Of a stretch of DNA of 64,000 bases, positions 56,147 to 63,861 are shown one piece after another. The stretch spans positions 1 to 64,000 of the forward strand of contig NZ_JADYUM010000005.1 of the NCBI RefSeq assembly GCF_021531815.1, written 5' to 3'. Numbering within the stretch: position 1 is the first letter of the stretch; each line of letters begins with the position of its first letter. The notes under the pieces are model-generated. The model was given only the letters and a program-made list of their open reading frames with translations, was not told the origin of the DNA and did not search any database. The stretch is from Pseudoflavonifractor phocaeensis (GTDB lineage: Bacteria; Bacillota; Clostridia; Oscillospirales; Oscillospiraceae). A program made the position numbers and the translations under genes.

Positions 56147-57022
56147 GTGGCGGTGGTCATCTATGTGGATACCCTGTTTCTGCTCAACGCCCTGGTGGAC
56201 TACCTGCTGCTGCTGGGTGCGGCCCGGCTGGCGGGGGAACCCCTGCGGCGGCTCCAGTTTGGAGCCGGAGCGGCGCTGGGCGGGCTGTATGCCGTGGCTC
56301 TGTTCCTGCCCGGCATGGGCTTTCTGAACCATCCCCTGTGCAGAGTGGCCGCGGGAGTGCTGATGGTGATGGCCGCCTATGGAGGCAGCAGAAGGCTTCT
56401 GCGGCAGGGACTGATTTTTCTGGCGCTGACCTGCGCCTTCGGGGGCGGAGTGGTGGCCATCGGTCTGCTGGGAGGCCAGGGATTGGCGTTGGGGCCACAG
56501 GGGGTTTTTTACTCCAAACTGGATCTGAACATGGTTTTGCTGTCAGCGGCCTTCTGTTATGGGATTCTGACAGTGGCCTTTCAGCGGCTGGGGAAGCATA
56601 CGGCCCTGAACGGAGAGCTGGTGGAGGCGAAGCTGACCTTGGGAAAGCGGACGGTGAAGCTGACCGCCCTGGTGGATACGGGAAACACCCTGACCGATCC
56701 GGTTTCCGGGCGCCCTGTCATGGTGGCGGAAGGGGAAAGCCTGGGCCCCCTGTTCCCGGGGGACCGGTGCCCCGGCCCGGAGGACCTGCGGGAACCGGCG
56801 GGGGCGCTGGACCGGCTGAGCAGGGGAGAATGGAGAGGCCGGTTTCGGCTGCTGCCCTACCGGGCGGTGGGGGTGGACCGGGGGCTGCTGCTGGCCCTGC
56901 GGGTGGATCGGTTGGAACTGAATGGTGTGGACCAGGGCGGGATCCTGGTGGCGCTGTCTCCCACGCCAGTGTCAGACGGGGGAGGGTACCGGGCGCTGGT
57001 GGGAGCCGTCCGGGGAGGATAG
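56147..57022 (+). CDS. spoIIGA: Sigma-E processing peptidase
   Basis: SpoIIGA is a membrane aspartic protease that cuts the pro-sequence off sigma-E in the mother cell during sporulation. The 291-residue protein has five hydrophobic segments in the first half ([18 protein letters not shown] and further). The catalytic motif [15 protein letters not shown], with Asp177, begins the soluble half. A GTG at 56147 is given; the GTG at 56153 is better spaced from GGGAGG and may be the true start. The sigE gene follows 22 nt after the stop, the standard order. Confidence 0.95.
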
Positions 57023-57044
57023 TGCGGAAAGGTCGGAGGAGTGC

Positions 57045-57767
57045 ATGAAAGGAATATTCTGGAGCCTGAAAGATCGCCTGGGGTCTATCTTGACACGGCT
57101 GGGCCTGTGCCTGCCGGGAAAAGTGATGTACATAGGGGGCAGCGACACCCTGCCCCCGCCGCTGAGCCGGGAGGAAGAAGCCGGGATGATCGCACGCCTG
57201 GGGGAGGGGGACAGTCAGGCGCGGAATCTGCTGATCGAGCACAACCTCCGCCTGGTGGCCTATATTGCCCGACGGTTTGAGAATACCGGGATCAACATCG
57301 AAGATCTGATCTCCATCGGCACCATTGGCCTGATCAAAGCGGTGGGCACTTACCAGCCGGACCGCAGCATCAAACTGGCCACCTACGCCAGCCGGTGCAT
57401 CGAAAATGAGATCCTGATGTACCTGCGCAAGACGGCCAGCCAGAAAACGGAGCTGTCCTTTGATGAACCGCTGAACACCGACTGGGACGGCAACGAGCTG
57501 CTACTGTCCGATGTGCTGGGTACCGACGGGGACCTGGTCATGCGGCCCATTGAAGCGGATGTGGACCGGCAGCTGCTGCGCCGGGCCATGGACCGGCTGG
57601 AGGAGCGGGAGCGCACCATCATCACCCTGCGTTTTGGCCTGGACGGGCGCCGTGAACGGACGCAGAAGGAGGTGGCCGATCAGCTGGGTATTTCCCAGTC
57701 CTACATCTCCCGTCTGGAGAAGCGGATCATCGCCCGGCTGAAAAAGGAGATCATAAGAATGATGTGA
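57045..57767 (+). CDS. sigE: Sporulation sigma factor E precursor
   Basis: The 240-residue sigma-70 family protein starts with a pro-sequence ([20 protein letters not shown]) and the conserved cleavage region [19 protein letters not shown] near 27-45, as in Bacillus pro-sigma-E. Region 2 has [26 protein letters not shown], and region 4 ends with a helix-turn-helix ([22 protein letters not shown]). It directs mother-cell gene expression once cut by SpoIIGA. The ATG at 57045 has GGAGGAG upstream. Confidence 0.97.
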
Positions 57768-57857: not shown

Positions 57858-58442
57858 TCACAGAGGCTGGCGGAACAGCCCGTGTTCGGTGCAGTACCAG
57901 AACAGCATTCCGTGGCCCCGGCGGGGCAGACGGACCTGGAAATCCCACTCCGGCCACCGCTTGATCACCGTGGCCTGCTCCCCGGACACCAGGGCGGCAA
58001 AGGACAGGTAGTGACCCTTGACCATGGGGTGGGAGGCGGTGATGAACCAGTCGTCCTCCACCTGCTCAAAGGTCAGGCGGTGTTCCTCGTCGGGCTTCCG
58101 GGGCTCCAGCGCCTCCAGCTTTCTACCGCAGCAGGACAGTACAGCGGAGCCTGTGGCGGTGATGAGGTTGCCGCACTGGGGGCAGACATAAAATTTCAGT
58201 TGACGCATACTTCCTCCATCCGGATCTTGCTCCTCTAGCTCTCCGGCCAGCAGGCGCTCCACCGGAACGCCCAGGGCCTGGGCCAGACTGGGCAGGAGGG
58301 ATACGTCGGGGCAGCCAAATCCCCGTTCCCATTTGCTGACTGCGCGGTCTGTGACCCCCAGGACGTCAGCCAGAGCCTGCTGGGTCATATGCTGTTCCGC
58401 CCGCAGGGCGCGGATGAGCGAGCCGGTTTTCTGTTGATCCAT
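57858..58442 (-). CDS. XRE-family regulator fused to a complete desulfoferrodoxin (superoxide-reductase) domain
   Basis: Residues 1-70 form a Cro/CI helix-turn-helix (TQQALADVLGVTDRAVSKWE). From about 83 the protein follows desulfoferrodoxin. CPQC (Cys87, Cys90) and CC (Cys104, Cys105) form a rubredoxin-like FeS4 site. His121, His138 (HPM), His144 (GHYL), Cys184 and His187 (WYCTEHG) match the five ligands of the superoxide-reducing iron. The Lys next to the first ligand in true enzymes (EKH) is Glu here (EEH), so catalysis may be lost while iron and superoxide sensing stay. This suggests a redox-sensing repressor. A palindrome in its own promoter may be its operator. Confidence 0.88.
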   Translation of the reverse strand: MDQQKTGSLIRALRAEQHMTQQALADVLGVTDRAVSKWERGFGCPDVSLLPSLAQALGVPVERLLAGELEEQDPDGGSMRQLKFYVCPQCGNLITATGSAVLSCCGRKLEALEPRKPDEEHRLTFEQVEDDWFITASHPMVKGHYLSFAALVSGEQATVIKRWPEWDFQVRLPRRGHGMLFWYCTEHGLFRQPL

Positions 58443-58453
58443 TCTTCATCCCT

Positions 58454-58504
58454 CCAACGGCATTATGACAGAGCGGGGGAGAAAAGGCAACCAACGGTCC
58501 GTTG
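58454..58504 (-). promoter_or_regulatory. Promoter and candidate operator of the XRE-desulfoferrodoxin gene
   Basis: Minus strand TTGCCT (58490-58485), a 17-nt spacer and CATAAT (58467-58462). CAACGG-T-CCGTTG (58492-58504) is a perfect inverted repeat just upstream, and the half-site CCAACGG recurs at 58454-58460 after the -10. Confidence 0.65.
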
Positions 58505-58527
58505 AGCCGCGAAAGAAAAGCGCTCAT

Positions 58528-59220
58528 TTACAGCTCCTGGACCAGGACCACGCCCTGGATCGCCTGGAGCTGTCCCAGGAGCCAGTCCGCCTTGCACTTT
58601 TTGTTCAGCCGCAGGGTGAAGATGGCGCAGGAGGTGATCTTTTCACCGTCGGAGTTCCGGGTGATCTCCACATCCAGCAGCTTCAGCTCCTGCTCACGGT
58701 AGAGCCGAAGCACATTGTCCAGGCAGTTTCTGCCGCTGTACTCCATGTAGAGGTTGATCTCCGGCGCGTTGTCCAGCATCCGGTATTCCAGCTTGGAGAA
58801 CAGCAGCTCCGCCAGCAGGATCAGCAGGGTGGACAGCAGGCCGCCCTCATAGAAGCCGGCCCCCAGGGTCAAGCCGATGATGGCGGCCGCCCACAGTCCG
58901 GCGGCAGTGGTCAGGCCCTTGACCCGCTGGCGGCGGGTGACGATGATGGTGCCCGCGCCGATGAAACCGACCCCGGCCACCACCTGGGCGCCCAGACGGG
59001 CCATATCGGTGTAGTAATGGAGCACCAGATAGAGGTACTGGCTGGTCAGGGTGGTCATGGCCGCCCCCAGGCAGATGAGGATATGGGTGCGGAAACCGGC
59101 CGGACGCCGCTTATATTCCCGTTCCATGCCGATAATGCCGCCGCAGATGACGGCCAGCAGCATCCGGACCGCCACGGACAGGAAGGTGATGTCCCGCAGG
59201 GGATCGAGAATCGATAACAT
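58528..59220 (-). CDS. MgtC/SapB-family membrane protein (copy 1)
   Basis: The 230-residue protein has four to five membrane segments in the first 130 residues with family motifs GGIIGMEREYKRRPAGFRTH and GVGFIGAGTII near 82-92. A cytoplasmic ACT-like tail lies at about 150-230. Relatives modulate membrane potential or ATP synthase in some pathogens, or assist Mg2+ homeostasis. No mgtA gene or Mg2+ leader is seen here. It starts 11 nt after the next similar gene ends, so two paralogs are cotranscribed. Confidence 0.9.
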   Translation of the reverse strand: MLSILDPLRDITFLSVAVRMLLAVICGGIIGMEREYKRRPAGFRTHILICLGAAMTTLTSQYLYLVLHYYTDMARLGAQVVAGVGFIGAGTIIVTRRQRVKGLTTAAGLWAAAIIGLTLGAGFYEGGLLSTLLILLAELLFSKLEYRMLDNAPEINLYMEYSGRNCLDNVLRLYREQELKLLDVEITRNSDGEKITSCAIFTLRLNKKCKADWLLGQLQAIQGVVLVQEL

Positions 59221-59231
59221 GACCTACCCTC

Positions 59232-59957
59232 CTATACTTCGTCAATGACGGTGATGTTCTCCAGTTCGGAGATGGCCGTCAGGACCTGTTCGTGGGCGCG
59301 CCGCTGGTTCAGGCGGATGGAGAATACCGCGCTGGGCCGCTGGGCGTACTGTTCCTTGCCTCTGGTGATGTCCACGTCGTAGATCTGGGCGTCCTGCGCC
59401 TTGATCTGGCTGATGATCGCTCCCACGTCGTCCAGAGAGGTGAACTCCACATAGATGTTCATATTCCGGGCGCGCTCCACAATGGCGGACTCCAGAGAGG
59501 GAAGGAAGCGGATACACAGGAAAATCAGCAGGAAGGCCAGGATCACGCACTCATAGAAGCCCGCGCCGATGGCCAGACCCATGCAGGCGGAGGCCCAGAG
59601 CCCGGCGGCGGTGGTCAGGCCCTTGACCTCCTGTTTCCCGGTGACGATGATGGTGCCGGCGCCCAAAAAGCCGATGCCGTTGATCACCTGGGCGCCGAAA
59701 CGGGAGACGTCGGTACGGATGCCTACCTCCTGGGCCACGCTGTTCCAGGGACCGTACAGCATCATGCTCTCGTATTGACTGAGCAATACTGTCAGCGCCG
59801 CTCCCATGCAGACGAACATGTAGGTGCGGAAGCCCGCTGCCCGGCCTTTTTTCGCCCGCTCGATCCCCAGCATACCGCCGAAAAGCATGGCCAGGACCAG
59901 CCGTAAAGCCACAGCCGGCAGGTTGCACTGCCGGAAATAGTCAAAGAAAACGATCAT
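59232..59957 (-). CDS. MgtC/SapB-family membrane protein (copy 2)
   Basis: The 241-residue paralog of the protein at 58528-59220. It has GGMLGIERAKKGRAAGFRTY, NGIGFLGAGTIIVTGKQEVKG and a C-terminal ACT-like domain ending FSIRLNQRRAHEQVL. The ATG at 59957 has AAAGGGGGCATCTC upstream; further in-frame sequence lacks family residues. Two tandem, diverged copies might form a heteromer or respond to different signals. The preceding YcxB-like gene ends 72 nt away with a CCGGCGG/CCGCCGG hairpin in the gap. Confidence 0.9.
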   Translation of the reverse strand: MIVFFDYFRQCNLPAVALRLVLAMLFGGMLGIERAKKGRAAGFRTYMFVCMGAALTVLLSQYESMMLYGPWNSVAQEVGIRTDVSRFGAQVINGIGFLGAGTIIVTGKQEVKGLTTAAGLWASACMGLAIGAGFYECVILAFLLIFLCIRFLPSLESAIVERARNMNIYVEFTSLDDVGAIISQIKAQDAQIYDVDITRGKEQYAQRPSAVFSIRLNQRRAHEQVLTAISELENITVIDEV

Positions 59958-60029
59958 TGGGAGATGCCCCCTTTCTCTTGGCCGGCGGATGTGCTGCCGC
60001 CGGAACACAGGACATCGGTTGTTACAAAA

Positions 60030-60741: not shown

Positions 60742-62055
60742 TCAGGCTGCCGCGCCGTACATCAGGTCGGGAAGAATGGTGATCAGCACCGGACAGAAGG
60801 TCAGCAACATCAGTACCAGGAACAGGCATAGGATAAATGGCCAGACCTCTTTCAGGAAGTCGGTGATGGGACACCTGGTAATGCCGCAGGTGGTGAACAT
60901 CATGGAGCCGAAGGGAGGCGTGATGCCGCCGATCATGATATTGACGATGGCCACCAGGCCGAAGTGATAGACATCGATGCCCAGAGTCCGCGCCACAGGC
61001 AGCAGCAGAGGGGTGATGATCATCAGAGCCGCGCCGCCCTCCAGGAACATACCCATGATCAGGAAGACCACGTTGCACAGGATCATGAAGACCCACTTGT
61101 TCTCGGTGATCCCCAGGATCGCGCTGGCGACAATCTTGGGCAGGTTGATCCAGGTCATATACTGGCCGAACACATTTGCGGACACCATGATCAGGACCAC
61201 GCTGGAGGTGCCGGAGATGGTATCCAGCAGGATGGGGATCAGGTGCTTGCGGAGGCTGAGCTTTTTGTAGACCAGCCGCCCGATGATGAAGGAGTACAGG
61301 ACCGCGATGGCGCCGCCCTCAGAGGGGGTGAACATGCCGAAGCGCATACCCAAAATGATGCCGAAGGGGAAGAACAGCCCCCAGAAGGAAATCAGAGCCT
61401 GCTTCAGAATGACCCGGATGGGGGGGAATTTATCACGGGTGGTGGGGTAATTGCGCTTGTGGGAAATGATGGCCACGGTGATCATCATGGAGATGGCCAT
61501 CAGGATGCCGGGGATATAGCCGGCGGCGAAGGTCCGGCCCAGAGAGGCTTGAGCGATCAGGGTGAAAACGATCAGGTTGACTCCGGGGGGGATGACGGGG
61601 GTAGCCGCAGAGGAGGCGGCAGTGATGGCTGCGGAGAAGGCCTTGGAGTAACCGCGCTTCTCCATCTCGGGGACCAGCATCTTGGACTGCATGGCGCAGT
61701 CGGCGTTGGCGGAGCCGGAGCAGCCGCCCATGAGCATGGACAGAAGAACGTTGACCTGAGCCAGACCGCCCTTCATATGTCCTGTGACACATTCACAGAA
61801 GTCCATCAGTTTGTCGCTGATCCCGCCGAAGTTCATCACCGAACCGGCCATGATGAAGAAGGGGATGGCCAGCATGGAAAAGGATTGGGTGGAGTTCATG
61901 ACCTTCTGAAGGATCAGCCAGGGAAGGGAGGTGGTGTCGATGAACAGGAAGTAGAAGAAAGTGGACCCGAACAAGGCGTAGACAATGGGCAGACCCAGGA
62001 AATAGAGGATGAAGACCATGAAAATGGGGATCATGTCCGTAAAAGTCAACGTCAT
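60742..62055 (-). CDS. dctM: TRAP transporter large permease
   Basis: The 437-residue protein has about 12 membrane helices and is the ion-coupled channel of a tripartite ATP-independent transporter. Family features are GGCSGSANADCAMQSKMLVPEM near 110-131, ASSAATPVIPPGVNLIVF near 147, and EGGAAL. GGITPPFGSMMFTTCGI, near the end, is the second DctM gateway motif. It works with DctQ, overlapping by 4 nt (ATGA), and the binding protein DctP. The transported acid or sugar acid is unknown. Confidence 0.95.
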   Translation of the reverse strand: MTLTFTDMIPIFMVFILYFLGLPIVYALFGSTFFYFLFIDTTSLPWLILQKVMNSTQSFSMLAIPFFIMAGSVMNFGGISDKLMDFCECVTGHMKGGLAQVNVLLSMLMGGCSGSANADCAMQSKMLVPEMEKRGYSKAFSAAITAASSAATPVIPPGVNLIVFTLIAQASLGRTFAAGYIPGILMAISMMITVAIISHKRNYPTTRDKFPPIRVILKQALISFWGLFFPFGIILGMRFGMFTPSEGGAIAVLYSFIIGRLVYKKLSLRKHLIPILLDTISGTSSVVLIMVSANVFGQYMTWINLPKIVASAILGITENKWVFMILCNVVFLIMGMFLEGGAALMIITPLLLPVARTLGIDVYHFGLVAIVNIMIGGITPPFGSMMFTTCGITRCPITDFLKEVWPFILCLFLVLMLLTFCPVLITILPDLMYGAAA

Positions 62056-62606
62056 TCTTCAATCCCCCCTTCTTCTGCCGCCTGCGCGGCCGCGGGCTTC
62101 TTTTTGATGATGTGCAGACGGTCCGTCAGCAGGAAGTAAATGGAGTAAATGGTGGACAGGCCGAAGCCGATGGGAACAGCGATACCGGTGTAGACCTTGG
62201 GCACCCGCAGCATATCGGTTAGCGCGATCTTCAGGACGCCTCGGGAGAAGACCAGGTTGTAAGCATACTGGGCGCTGATCACGGTGAGCATGATCAGGAT
62301 GAGCAGCTCCACGACGCTCATGATGTCACGAACGATATTCCGGACCTTGGGAGGCATCAGGTTGACCAGGATGTCGATGCCCAAGTGGGAGTGCTTACGG
62401 TAGGCATAGGCGCTGCCGATAAACACAGTCCACACGAACAGGCTGGTAACGACTTCTTCGCTCCACTGGATGGGGCTGTTCAGGAAGTACCGGCAGATAA
62501 CGTTCAGGTTGACCAGAATCGTACACAGTGACAGGGTCACCGCGGTGATAATGGCGTCCAGATTTGTCAGGACCGTTTTAAGAGTGATCTTTTTTTTATG
62601 TTCCAT
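62052..62606 (-). CDS. dctQ: TRAP transporter small permease
   Basis: This four-helix membrane protein of about 184 residues has the DctQ pattern RYFLNSPIQWSEEVVTSLFVW near 40 and YRKHSHLGIDILVNLMPPK near 71, ending in a charged Ala/Lys tail. It pairs with DctM in the membrane. The ATG at 62606 has AAGGAA 7 nt upstream; an ATG at 62612 lies too near that site. The gene follows dctP after a gap with a strong hairpin. Confidence 0.93.
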   Translation of the reverse strand: MEHKKKITLKTVLTNLDAIITAVTLSLCTILVNLNVICRYFLNSPIQWSEEVVTSLFVWTVFIGSAYAYRKHSHLGIDILVNLMPPKVRNIVRDIMSVVELLILIMLTVISAQYAYNLVFSRGVLKIALTDMLRVPKVYTGIAVPIGFGLSTIYSIYFLLTDRLHIIKKKPAAAQAAEEGGIEE

Positions 62607-62682
62607 ACGCATTTCCTTACAAAATCAGTTGGGATGGTACGAACTCGCACGGCATTGGGAAAGGAACTTTGCTTTTAAGGAC

Positions 62683-62724
62683 CTCAGCATAGGCCGCCCA
62701 TTCACTCGGACGGCCTATGCTGAG
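62683..62724 (-). promoter_or_regulatory. Intercistronic hairpin between dctP and dctQ
   Basis: CTCAGCATAGGCCG pairs perfectly with CGGCCTATGCTGAG over 14 bp. No strong T-run follows, so it may stabilise dctP mRNA or partly terminate, giving excess binding protein. Confidence 0.75.
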
Positions 62725-62766
62725 TGAAATGTTACATGTTTTTGGGAAAGAGGGGAATGGAAAAGA

Positions 62767-63861
62767 TCACTTGTTGCTGGCGCGGTAGTCGTTGATCAGA
62801 GCGACCAGCTGGTCACGCAGTTCGGGGTTGGCGCCATACTCTTCCACCATCCAGTCATAGACGGGAGCACAGGCCTCGGTGAAGGCGTCCAGGTCCACTT
62901 CGTTCCAGGTGACGCCGTTCTCAGCCAGCATCTTCTTCTGGGTATCCTCGTCCTCGGCGCAGCTGGTCTGCTCCCAGATACCGCACTCAACAGCGCACTC
63001 GTCGATGATGTTTCTCCACTTCTCGGGGATGGACTGATACAGGTCCTCGGGCATGAACAGCCAGCGGGTGGCGATCAGGTGGTTGGTCAGAGCGACCTTC
63101 TTGACCAGCTCATAGGGGGCGCCGGCGCCGGCCAGAGTGGAGGTGGAGCCCTCGAAGCCTTCGACCACGCCGGAGGAGATGGCGGACAGGCACTCAGTGA
63201 AGCTCATGGGGGTGGGGATGGCGCCCAGGCACTCAACGGTCTTGGAGAACATGGCGGAGGAGGTGGCGCGCAGCTTGACGCCCGTCAGATCGGCGGGGGT
63301 GTAGATGTCGCGGTTGGTGACCACGCTGCGGAAGCCGAAGGAGTAGTGGGTGTCCAGAATGTGGATGTTCTCGGCGGCCAGACGGTCAATAACGTCCTTG
63401 ACGATGTCGGACTCCATGACGTAGTTGTACTCGTCATTGCTGTTGTACAGCATGGGGCCGATCAGCACAGCGGCGTCGCCCACGTAGTCGGCAAACAGGG
63501 AGGGCTCTTCCAGGCCCATCCAGTTGGCGCCGTTGACGGCCTGGGTGACGGAGTCGCCGTAGCAGTCCAGCTCGTTCTGGCCGTAGTAAGTAACATTGAT
63601 GTGGCCCTCGGTGCGCTCGGTGATCATCTCAGCCAGCTTCTCAGAGGCCTTGTAGTTCCACTCGGTGGGCTGGAATACGTTGGAGAACTTGATGTCCAGA
63701 TAGAAGTCATCAGCGGGATCGGTCTCGGCGGTGGAGGCGGAGGCGGCGCTGCCGGCGGACGTGGTTCCGGTGGAAGGGGTGGACTTGCTGCCACCGCCGC
63801 CGCAGGCGCACAGGGACAGGGTCATGGCCAGGGCAAGAAGCATTGCGATTGTCTTTTTCAT
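62767..63861 (-). CDS. dctP: TRAP transporter substrate-binding lipoprotein
   Basis: The 364-residue exported protein has a lipoprotein signal (LSLCAC, Cys20), a Ser/Thr/Ala-rich linker and the DctP fold. LRATSSAMFSKTVECLGAIPTPMSFTE, near 195-221, contains the Arg that binds the carboxylate of the ligand. It captures an anionic compound outside the cell and passes it to DctQM. Arg in the motif suggests a carboxylate substrate. AAGGAGAGATTTAAG precedes the ATG. Confidence 0.94.
   Translation of the reverse strand: MKKTIAMLLALAMTLSLCACGGGGSKSTPSTGTTSAGSAASASTAETDPADDFYLDIKFSNVFQPTEWNYKASEKLAEMITERTEGHINVTYYGQNELDCYGDSVTQAVNGANWMGLEEPSLFADYVGDAAVLIGPMLYNSNDEYNYVMESDIVKDVIDRLAAENIHILDTHYSFGFRSVVTNRDIYTPADLTGVKLRATSSAMFSKTVECLGAIPTPMSFTECLSAISSGVVEGFEGSTSTLAGAGAPYELVKKVALTNHLIATRWLFMPEDLYQSIPEKWRNIIDECAVECGIWEQTSCAEDEDTQKKMLAENGVTWNEVDLDAFTEACAPVYDWMVEEYGANPELRDQLVALINDYRASNK

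Follow-up and report, generated by a model that had tools for sequence, protein, structure and literature searches.

A helix-turn-helix protein with a diverged desulfoferrodoxin module, its conserved putative operator and recurrent candidate target genes

A 64,000-nucleotide stretch of the Pseudoflavonifractor phocaeensis genome (contig NZ_JADYUM010000005.1, positions 1 to 64,000; here called the window) holds a gene that joins a DNA-binding domain to a domain resembling an enzyme, the superoxide reductase desulfoferrodoxin. This raises the question whether the product acts as an enzyme or as a regulator and, in the latter case, which part of it may sense a signal and which genes it may control. 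The fusion architecture is already known: in 2011, SORGOdb grouped 19 proteins with an N-terminal helix-turn-helix (HTH) in front of desulforedoxin (Dx) and superoxide reductase (SOR) modules as class HTH-Dx-SOR (PMC3116461). As far as the accessible sections of that article go, the class description comes without operator, targets or sensing site. In the open-access literature searched, the term HTH-Dx-SOR was found only there, and neither a functional study of the class nor an operator, target or signal for it was found; judged against this literature, the operator and the target set described below appear to be new.

The gene occupies positions 57858..58442 on the minus strand, a single frame of 194 amino acids without internal stop that runs from an ATG at 58442 to a stop codon at 57858-57860. 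Residues 1-70 (58233..58442, minus) form the XRE domain of the original prediction: residues 10-63 match PF01381 (HTH_3) with 54.5 bits against a cut-off of 23, a phmmer-type search relates the HTH to 1adr (E 5.9e-6), and in the structure model it superimposes on the P22 c2 repressor 3jxb_D (Z 12.9, 65 residues, 1.5 Å). A desulforedoxin-like Cys4 site follows in residues 80-109 (58116..58205, minus; Cys87, Cys90, Cys104 and Cys105), and residues 117-194 (57861..58094, minus) make up a superoxide-reductase-like domain with the five ligands of the second metal site, His121, His138, His144, Cys184 and His187. Translation and alignment place all nine ligands at the numbers given beforehand. The observation of a desulfoferrodoxin domain with all its ligands is confirmed, while the sequence scores are low, with 26.5 bits (E 5.8e-6) for the match of residues 81-190 to NCBIfam dfx_rbo (cut-off 146.9), 16.3 bits for PF06397 (Desulfoferrod_N; cut-off 23) and 13.1 bits for PF01880 (Desulfoferrodox; cut-off 22.2). 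Because these scores lie below every curated desulfoferrodoxin cut-off, the protein is best described as a diverged desulfoferrodoxin relative; phmmer links it to 1dfx with E 5.6e-5. A template-free AlphaFold2 model based on 62 family sequences (pLDDT 92.5) recovers the desulfoferrodoxin fold, matching the T. pallidum superoxide reductase 1y07_D (Z 14.4, 114 residues, 1.9 Å), 1dfx (Z 13.8, 115 residues, 2.8 Å) and 2ji1 (Z 13.5). Together with the two E values, these fold matches take the resemblance beyond chance. In the catalytic loop, which reads EEH, Glu119 is the equivalent of enzyme Glu47, the first His is kept, and the residue preceding it is Glu120 in place of Lys48. The genome encodes one such fusion protein and one ordinary desulfoferrodoxin with an EKH loop (L001), whose cysteines are spaced CX2CX15CC as against CX2CX13CC in the fusion protein. 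Directly upstream of the gene lies a tandem pair of MgtC/SapB-like membrane protein genes (58528-60008, minus), followed further upstream by a TRAP-type transporter set of large and small membrane subunits and solute-binding protein (60742-63861, minus); spoIIGA-like and sporulation sigma factor (sigE-like) genes (56147-57767) are convergent with it, all of these named by eye.

Which of the two metal sites is conserved was read from an alignment of 134 full-length proteins, comprising the 27 best-scoring loci of the same taxonomic family, 80 from a scan of named genomes, 26 from the phylum and the window protein; an initial set of 139 included five partial sequences, which were left out, and among those retained two are truncated near the C-terminus and some are near duplicates, for example L049 and L127. 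Cys87, Cys90 and Cys104 are cysteine in 134/134 rows and Cys105 in 132, the other two having His, which leaves the Cys4 site intact in 132/134; the patterns of the named-genome scan favour one Cys pair, so that part of the sample is biased towards Cys87 and Cys90. For the SOR site, the counts out of 134 are 134 for His138, 126 for His144, 122 for Cys184, 102 for His187 and 78 for His121, with Met140 kept in 133; all five ligands occur together in 64 and not in the remaining 70. Position 119 is Glu in 69/134, the window protein among them. Lys is found at position 120 in two rows, both of which carry Glu for His121, so the Lys-His pair occurs in 0/134. As a control, 32 stand-alone SOR sequences of the same taxonomic family all have Glu47, Lys48, His49 and the remaining ligands of site II, and 31 of them keep the four Cys. 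The exchange of the catalytic Lys for Glu was thus read correctly, and the pattern in the relatives suggests that catalysis is altered, as had been proposed.

In a tree, the HTH-fused proteins form one clade against the 32 stand-alone SORs with support 100/100, although few columns were available and the outgroup is narrow, all of it from one family. Most losses of His121 fall within a single large group, beside which the window protein branches together with its nearest relatives L003 and L032; these three keep all five site-II ligands. An early-branching clade of six members (L111, L134-L138; support 98/88) has Pro for His121 in four of them, and several lineages have lost most SOR-site ligands, down to one of five in Lacrimispora L048 (KHYSQ). 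The fold predicted for L048 has nearly the same secondary structure (pLDDT 88.6), which is weak evidence because it was built on the same family alignment.

Upstream of the gene, all on the minus strand, stand a Shine-Dalgarno-like GGAGGG (58450..58455, by eye), a -10 element CATAAT (58462..58467) and, 17 bases from it, a -35 element TTGCCT (58485..58490), whose TTG it has in common with a putative operator, CTCAACGGACCGTTGGTTG (58488..58506). Given the placement of the -35 and -10 elements, the centre of this dyad falls roughly 43 bases upstream of the inferred transcription start. Family comparison yields the dyad CTCTACG-N3-CGTNNNTTG, abutting the -35 element of the gene's own promoter; the window version is CTCAACG-GAC-CGTTGGTTG, and the aligned upstream regions read aCTCTACGgagCGTttaTTGc, then the -10 element. 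The core ACG-N3-CGT is present in 88/133 upstream regions, where 2.5 are expected, and the spacer between TTGNNN and the -10 element measures 17 bases in 91/107 relatives. An operator matrix, scored leave-one-out with relatives of at least 70% identity dropped, gives at least 10 bits in 116, at least 15 bits in 107 and at least 20 bits in 89 of the 133 regions; among 1330 shuffles, one reaches 10 bits and none 15 or 20. Chance was considered as the origin of the operator and is ruled out by these shuffles together with a reversed-pattern control run on 200 genomes from the same taxonomic family (24 matches vs 4). The 17 regions below 10 bits (L098 rounds to 10.0) include L055, with its site beyond the trained offset, as well as L063 and L118, in which the operator precedes a reductase gene (in L063 the order is operator, FMN reductase, regulator); apart from these and the six-member clade, the low-scoring regions are unexplained or weak variants. 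This conserved putative operator bears out the predicted role as a DNA-binding regulator as far as comparison can, and the protein is predicted to bind it and thereby to regulate its own gene. Lambda CI activates PRM from a dyad centred near -43, and a repressor could equally occupy a dyad at about this position.

The search for further targets started from the pattern CTCWACGNNNCGTNNNTTG, which has exactly two perfect matches in the window's genome: the gene's own promoter and G000:C22:202258-202276, a site on another contig that precedes the gene of a 217-residue CatA-like acetyltransferase. A flavin-reductase/rubredoxin fusion gene, named by eye, is convergent to this acetyltransferase gene (L172 109-732). 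With two mismatches allowed, this genome has 52 matches vs 68 for the reversed pattern, and weaker sites are therefore indistinguishable from chance. The 24 matches of a stricter pattern in the 200 family genomes comprise 13 own promoters, one start of a truncated regulator, three CatA-like genes, one XRE gene (L217) and six chance matches that have no such gene just downstream and lie mostly in coding sequence. The 12 matches (8 reversed) in 396 phylum genomes comprise four chance matches and eight others, of which five are at own promoters and one each stands before the CatA-like gene of the window's genome, before an FMN reductase gene (G418) and before a GIY-like operon (G202). In 28 named genomes, one mismatch gave 75 matches vs 55 reversed; among 14 second matches picked from them, five stand before genes (L284, L285, L286, L289, L290), six lie in coding sequence (L287, L288, L291, L294, L295, L296), and two stay below 12 bits (L293, L297). 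As the pattern rises little above its reversed control in these wider searches, the case rests on where the matches fall.

They fall repeatedly in front of two kinds of enzyme genes. The CatA-like targets score 190 bits with PF00302 in Pfam and remain below the NCBIfam chloram_CatA cut-off (204 vs 270 bits). A search of the 200 family genomes gave 43 CatA-like matches, of which the six closest (at least 47% identity, a line drawn after the data had been seen) are all linked to the operator or the regulator: five have an operator of 22.4-31.9 bits in front (G000, G150, G155, G082, G044), and in G014 the gene stands directly behind the regulator. Among the 37 distant matches, 24 had their loci examined; none was linked, and no site above 6.9 bits was present anywhere in these loci. 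In the regulator copies of G014 and G082, the HTH part is interrupted by an in-frame stop, and the G014 copy also lies at a contig end. A second test set consisted of 52 other regulator-bearing genomes, 28 of them named, with six of the phylum-search genomes left out. Here, close CatA-like genes (>330 bits) are linked in 4/4 cases and distant ones in 0/9; for FMN reductases, the figures are 8/9 for close (at least 340 bits) and 0/5 for distant genes. Four of the linked reductase genes lie behind the regulator (G606, G600, G331, G524) and four have their own operator (G598, G418, G534, G368), while a close reductase gene in G584 has no link to operator or regulator. Two loci were set aside from these counts: L379, the second gene of the G606 operon, and L377 (G444), a more distant reductase gene directly before the regulator with an operator of 22.7 bits. 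The reductases match PF03358 in Pfam (66 bits), and four sequences share Cys48-X2-Cys51-X2-Cys54-X7-Cys62, which resembles the compact motif of iron-sulfur flavoproteins; a 2006 study reportedly concerned such an iron-sulfur flavoprotein with oxygen and hydrogen peroxide.

A third kind of target is a small operon. Second operators also precede genes of small proteins, presumably GIY-like, in Clostridium sp. Marseille-P2415, Lacrimispora, Anaerotignum and Desulfosporosinus acididurans; in Lacrimispora the gene is followed by DUF2087 and CatA-like genes, and in Anaerotignum it stands behind a 74-residue XRE gene. These proteins match nothing above cut-off in Pfam, and one of the two tested against NCBIfam has a weak match to a group I intron endonuclease (19.8 vs 56 bits). 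A 17.2-bit site about 2.9 kb upstream of the L111 regulator and the D. acididurans site before a GIY-like operon prompted an operon test, for which the regions of the other five members of the early-branching clade and three further copies were fetched. None of the six members (L111, L134-L138) has an operator immediately before the regulator; in each, an operon begins with the GIY-like gene and ends with the regulator. Between the two lie a gene for an AAA-VWA protein (6/6) and, except in L385, one for a DUF6530 protein. The operator is found just before the GIY-like gene, at 17.2 (L111), 16.6 (L381), 24.0 (L382), 24.5 (L383), 24.4 (L384) and 23.4 bits (L385), and likewise in two second copies (L386, 26.6 bits; L387, 17.2 bits); the first D. 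acididurans copy (L388) shows the common arrangement, with the site at its own promoter. Two sites, in L111 and L386, were known before the test, the five other clade sites and that of L387 were new to it, and none of the operon-head sites had been included in the operator matrix. In L383, the AAA_5 match amounts to 46.7 bits and that to DUF6530 (PF20140) to 158.9 bits; the AAA-VWA protein matches VWA below cut-off (19.2 vs 23.8 bits), and its gene is split into two ORFs in L111 and L385. The word DUF6530 was not found in the open-access literature searched. L381 also has a 24.5-bit operator before a gene of 414 residues that by eye is transporter-like (1066-2368, sense strand) and is possibly a further target.

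Fusion, fold, ligand conservation, the operator with its position and its recurrence at targets are all computed here, and on balance they make it probable that the protein is an autoregulated one-component transcription regulator that senses through its Cys4 centre. The XRE domain would bind the dyad abutting the -35 element of its own promoter as a dimer, and also the second copy before the CatA-like O-acetyltransferase gene (G000:C22), while the desulfoferrodoxin part would serve as the sensor and probably also as the dimer interface. The desulforedoxin-type Cys4 site, presumably holding iron as a one-electron switch, would be the centre under constraint; the SOR site, which has no catalytic Lys, may be a remnant that is decaying in other family members. 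Oxidation, loss or modification of the Cys4 metal could then alter DNA binding and thereby raise or lower the expression of a few defence genes, namely the regulator's own and, beside it, the acetyltransferase, the FMN reductase resembling iron-sulfur flavoproteins, or the small GIY-like/DUF6530/AAA-VWA operon. We infer the binding, the dimer, the identity of the metal, the redox signal and the direction of control. The Cys4 site could also hold zinc and be structural, and invariance alone does not make a sensor. Built on this is an alternative that we consider unlikely, though worth weighing, in which a structural zinc holds a fold that has become a pocket for a small molecule, for instance an antibiotic or another xenobiotic, and the regulator induces an acetyltransferase or reductase acting on it. 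Targets of the CAT family (PF00302) and of the FMN reductase family (PF03358) would suit xenobiotic handling, as would the operator before the transporter-like gene in L381, and variation of a former metal site is what a ligand pocket would be expected to show. Two residues do not vary accordingly, however: His138 (134/134) and Met140 (133/134) are near-invariant, which suits a metal site, and the AAA-VWA operon of one clade is no evident drug-modifying set.

The original prediction had favoured superoxide as a possible signal, sensed at the SOR iron. Spelled out, superoxide (or oxygen, or NO) would be sensed at the His4Cys iron, and the loss of Lys would slow turnover, so that an oxidised or peroxo state persists for long enough to serve as the signal. 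The window protein and its clade, with five ligands and the fold intact, fit this idea, and so does the retention of His138 in all and of His144 in 126 of the relatives. As a family-wide mechanism, it is nevertheless not supported by the conservation of the two sites: the five ligands are complete in only 64/134 and His121 is kept in only 78/134, several lineages being without most ligands and four of six members of the early-branching clade having Pro at His121, whereas Cys4 is kept in 132/134. Lacrimispora (L048 genome), in which most ligands are lost, still has the operator both at the regulator's own promoter and heading a CatA-like operon. Since a CatA-like gene stands under the operator in the window's genome, with five ligands, as well as in Lacrimispora, with KHYSQ, the choice of target does not track site II. 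Superoxide chemistry at this site thus does not seem to be required family-wide, while it is possibly still active in the window protein, because all five ligands are kept there; as an account of the regulator, sensing at the SOR iron appears rather improbable.

The specificity of the operator was examined in 40 further loci, most of them holding XRE genes of other kinds whose HTH is similar. A readable HTH gene is present in 37; one of these (L351) is an HTH-Dx-SOR fragment, and the other 36 were counted. Upstream of these 36, no site attains 20 bits, with one at 15 or more and five at 10 or more; judged by eye, the dyad there is CTCTACC-N3-GGT or CTCAACC-N3-GGT in about nine cases. These 36 XRE genes (L312-L347, from related genomes), which combine a similar HTH with other, mostly membrane-type tails, often have a related but distinct dyad in the same place, CTCTACC-N3-GGTNNNTTG. 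From sequence comparison, operator and HTH of these genes seem to have diverged together. Two other XRE genes carry an operator of the HTH-Dx-SOR type: L217 (G062), the product of which has a membrane-like tail and two CxxC pairs, and the short, 74-residue L290. Other XRE proteins may therefore read it, and the L217 operator hints at cross-talk between XRE families. The operator might even belong mainly to other XRE regulators, HTH-Dx-SOR regulating only itself and the sites at CatA-like, FMN reductase and GIY-like genes reflecting the others, as L217 and L290 would allow and as would G150, where a CatA-like gene has a 31.6-bit operator and no HTH-Dx-SOR was found in the genome. We hold this to be quite improbable, given that 0/36 other XRE genes have a 20-bit site and about nine have the GGT-type dyad instead, and that the regulator shares an operon with CatA-like genes (L066, L071, L077, L082, G556 and G014, the last with its operator not visible in a locus cut by the contig end), with FMN reductase genes (L046, read by eye in a locus cut by the contig end, L049, L057, L060, L063, G331, G524, G444) and, in eight loci, with the AAA-VWA gene. 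A working superoxide reductase with a DNA-binding tether that shields DNA from superoxide is hardly credible: the complete ligand set and the Glu47 equivalent of the window protein would suit it, but Glu replaces Lys48, Lys stands beside His in 0/134, the full site is missing in 70/134 relatives and the same genome has the ordinary EKH enzyme L001.

Several known systems can be compared with the window protein and with the favoured reading, a regulator sensing through Cys4. With desulfoferrodoxin or class I superoxide reductase (1dfx, 2ji1, L001), the protein shares the fold and the nine ligands; it differs in Glu for Lys48, in the added HTH and in scores below the curated cut-offs, and the Glu47 equivalent is present in only 69/134 of its HTH-fused relatives. 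The common N-terminal HTH, desulforedoxin Cys4 motif and SOR module (four His, one Cys) agree with what the accessible part of the SORGOdb article gives for HTH-Dx-SOR, where the Dx motif is quoted as CXXCX15CC, two residues longer than CX2CX13CC in the window protein (PMC3116461). The class label implies an enzyme, whereas the window protein is without the key Lys. With repressors of the P22 c2 / lambda CI type, the HTH domain is common (1adr, E 5.9e-6; Z 12.9), and the dyad near -43 is placed as that of lambda CI at PRM. Those repressors have a self-cleavage domain, which is absent here; the sensor module of the window protein is a metalloprotein fold instead. The SoxR operator lies between -35 and -10, unlike that of the window, which adjoins -35. 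If the favoured reading is right, SoxR is alike in combining a DNA-binding domain, a one-electron iron-sulfur switch and few defence targets; as described in the part of PMC8063818 consulted, it differs as a MerR-family HTH protein with a CX2CXCX5C [2Fe-2S] motif, the window protein being of the XRE type (HTH_3) with a mononuclear CX2CX13CC site. TrtA of Treponema denticola is likewise an XRE-family regulator tied to oxygen stress (PMC12724145). It was considered as a studied member of the class and rejected: it has 104 residues, and the sections of that article consulted report no similarity of its C-terminal part to a functional protein, and none to desulfoferrodoxin.

The spread of the class was also surveyed. 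Among 200 genomes from the taxonomic family of the window's genome, 57 have a match that begins in the HTH half and continues to at least residue 190; the search listed 82 genomes at E 1e-15, the remainder being mostly HTH-only and G153 a C-terminal fragment. In the phylum, 31 of 398 genomes match at 1e-25, four of the matches being of partial length. The scan of named genomes returned at least 596 candidate stretches, at least 575 of which encode a relative, some possibly as HTH-only matches; at least 80 full-length HTH-Dx-SOR proteins were kept from it by alignment, with members in Bacilli, Gordonibacter, Enteroscipio and two Spirochaete MAGs. What appears to be a self-regulating switch thus occurs in many Gram-positive bacteria. 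The 80 named loci show no conserved gene neighbourhood: the neighbour cluster with the most loci is the regulator itself (71), and second comes an ABC ATPase, present in 9 loci without a fixed position. In four Lawsonibacter-type loci the regulator is followed by TcdA-like (ThiF) genes, and in three Bacilli by isochorismatase-like genes. A link to the ordinary enzyme was also considered and rejected: counting matches at 1e-12 or better, the 200 family genomes divide into 32 with both regulator and stand-alone SOR, 25 with the regulator only, 66 with the enzyme only and 77 with neither, with no association between the two (p 0.21).

In a wider perspective, and only tentatively, HTH-Dx-SOR proteins may be one-component redox sensors of a class of their own, a counterpart of SoxR in Firmicutes and some other bacteria, in which the electron-entry iron of the Cys4 site has been turned into a sensor while the former active site decays, and which controls itself and one of a few defence modules through an operator of its own. 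The conserved operator and the recurrent targets make this unstudied class experimentally testable. Redox regulators of anaerobic Firmicutes include PerR and Rex; if the Cys4 centre is the sensor, these bacteria would gain a further one, and the auxiliary electron centre of an enzyme would provide an example of how such a centre may become a gene switch.
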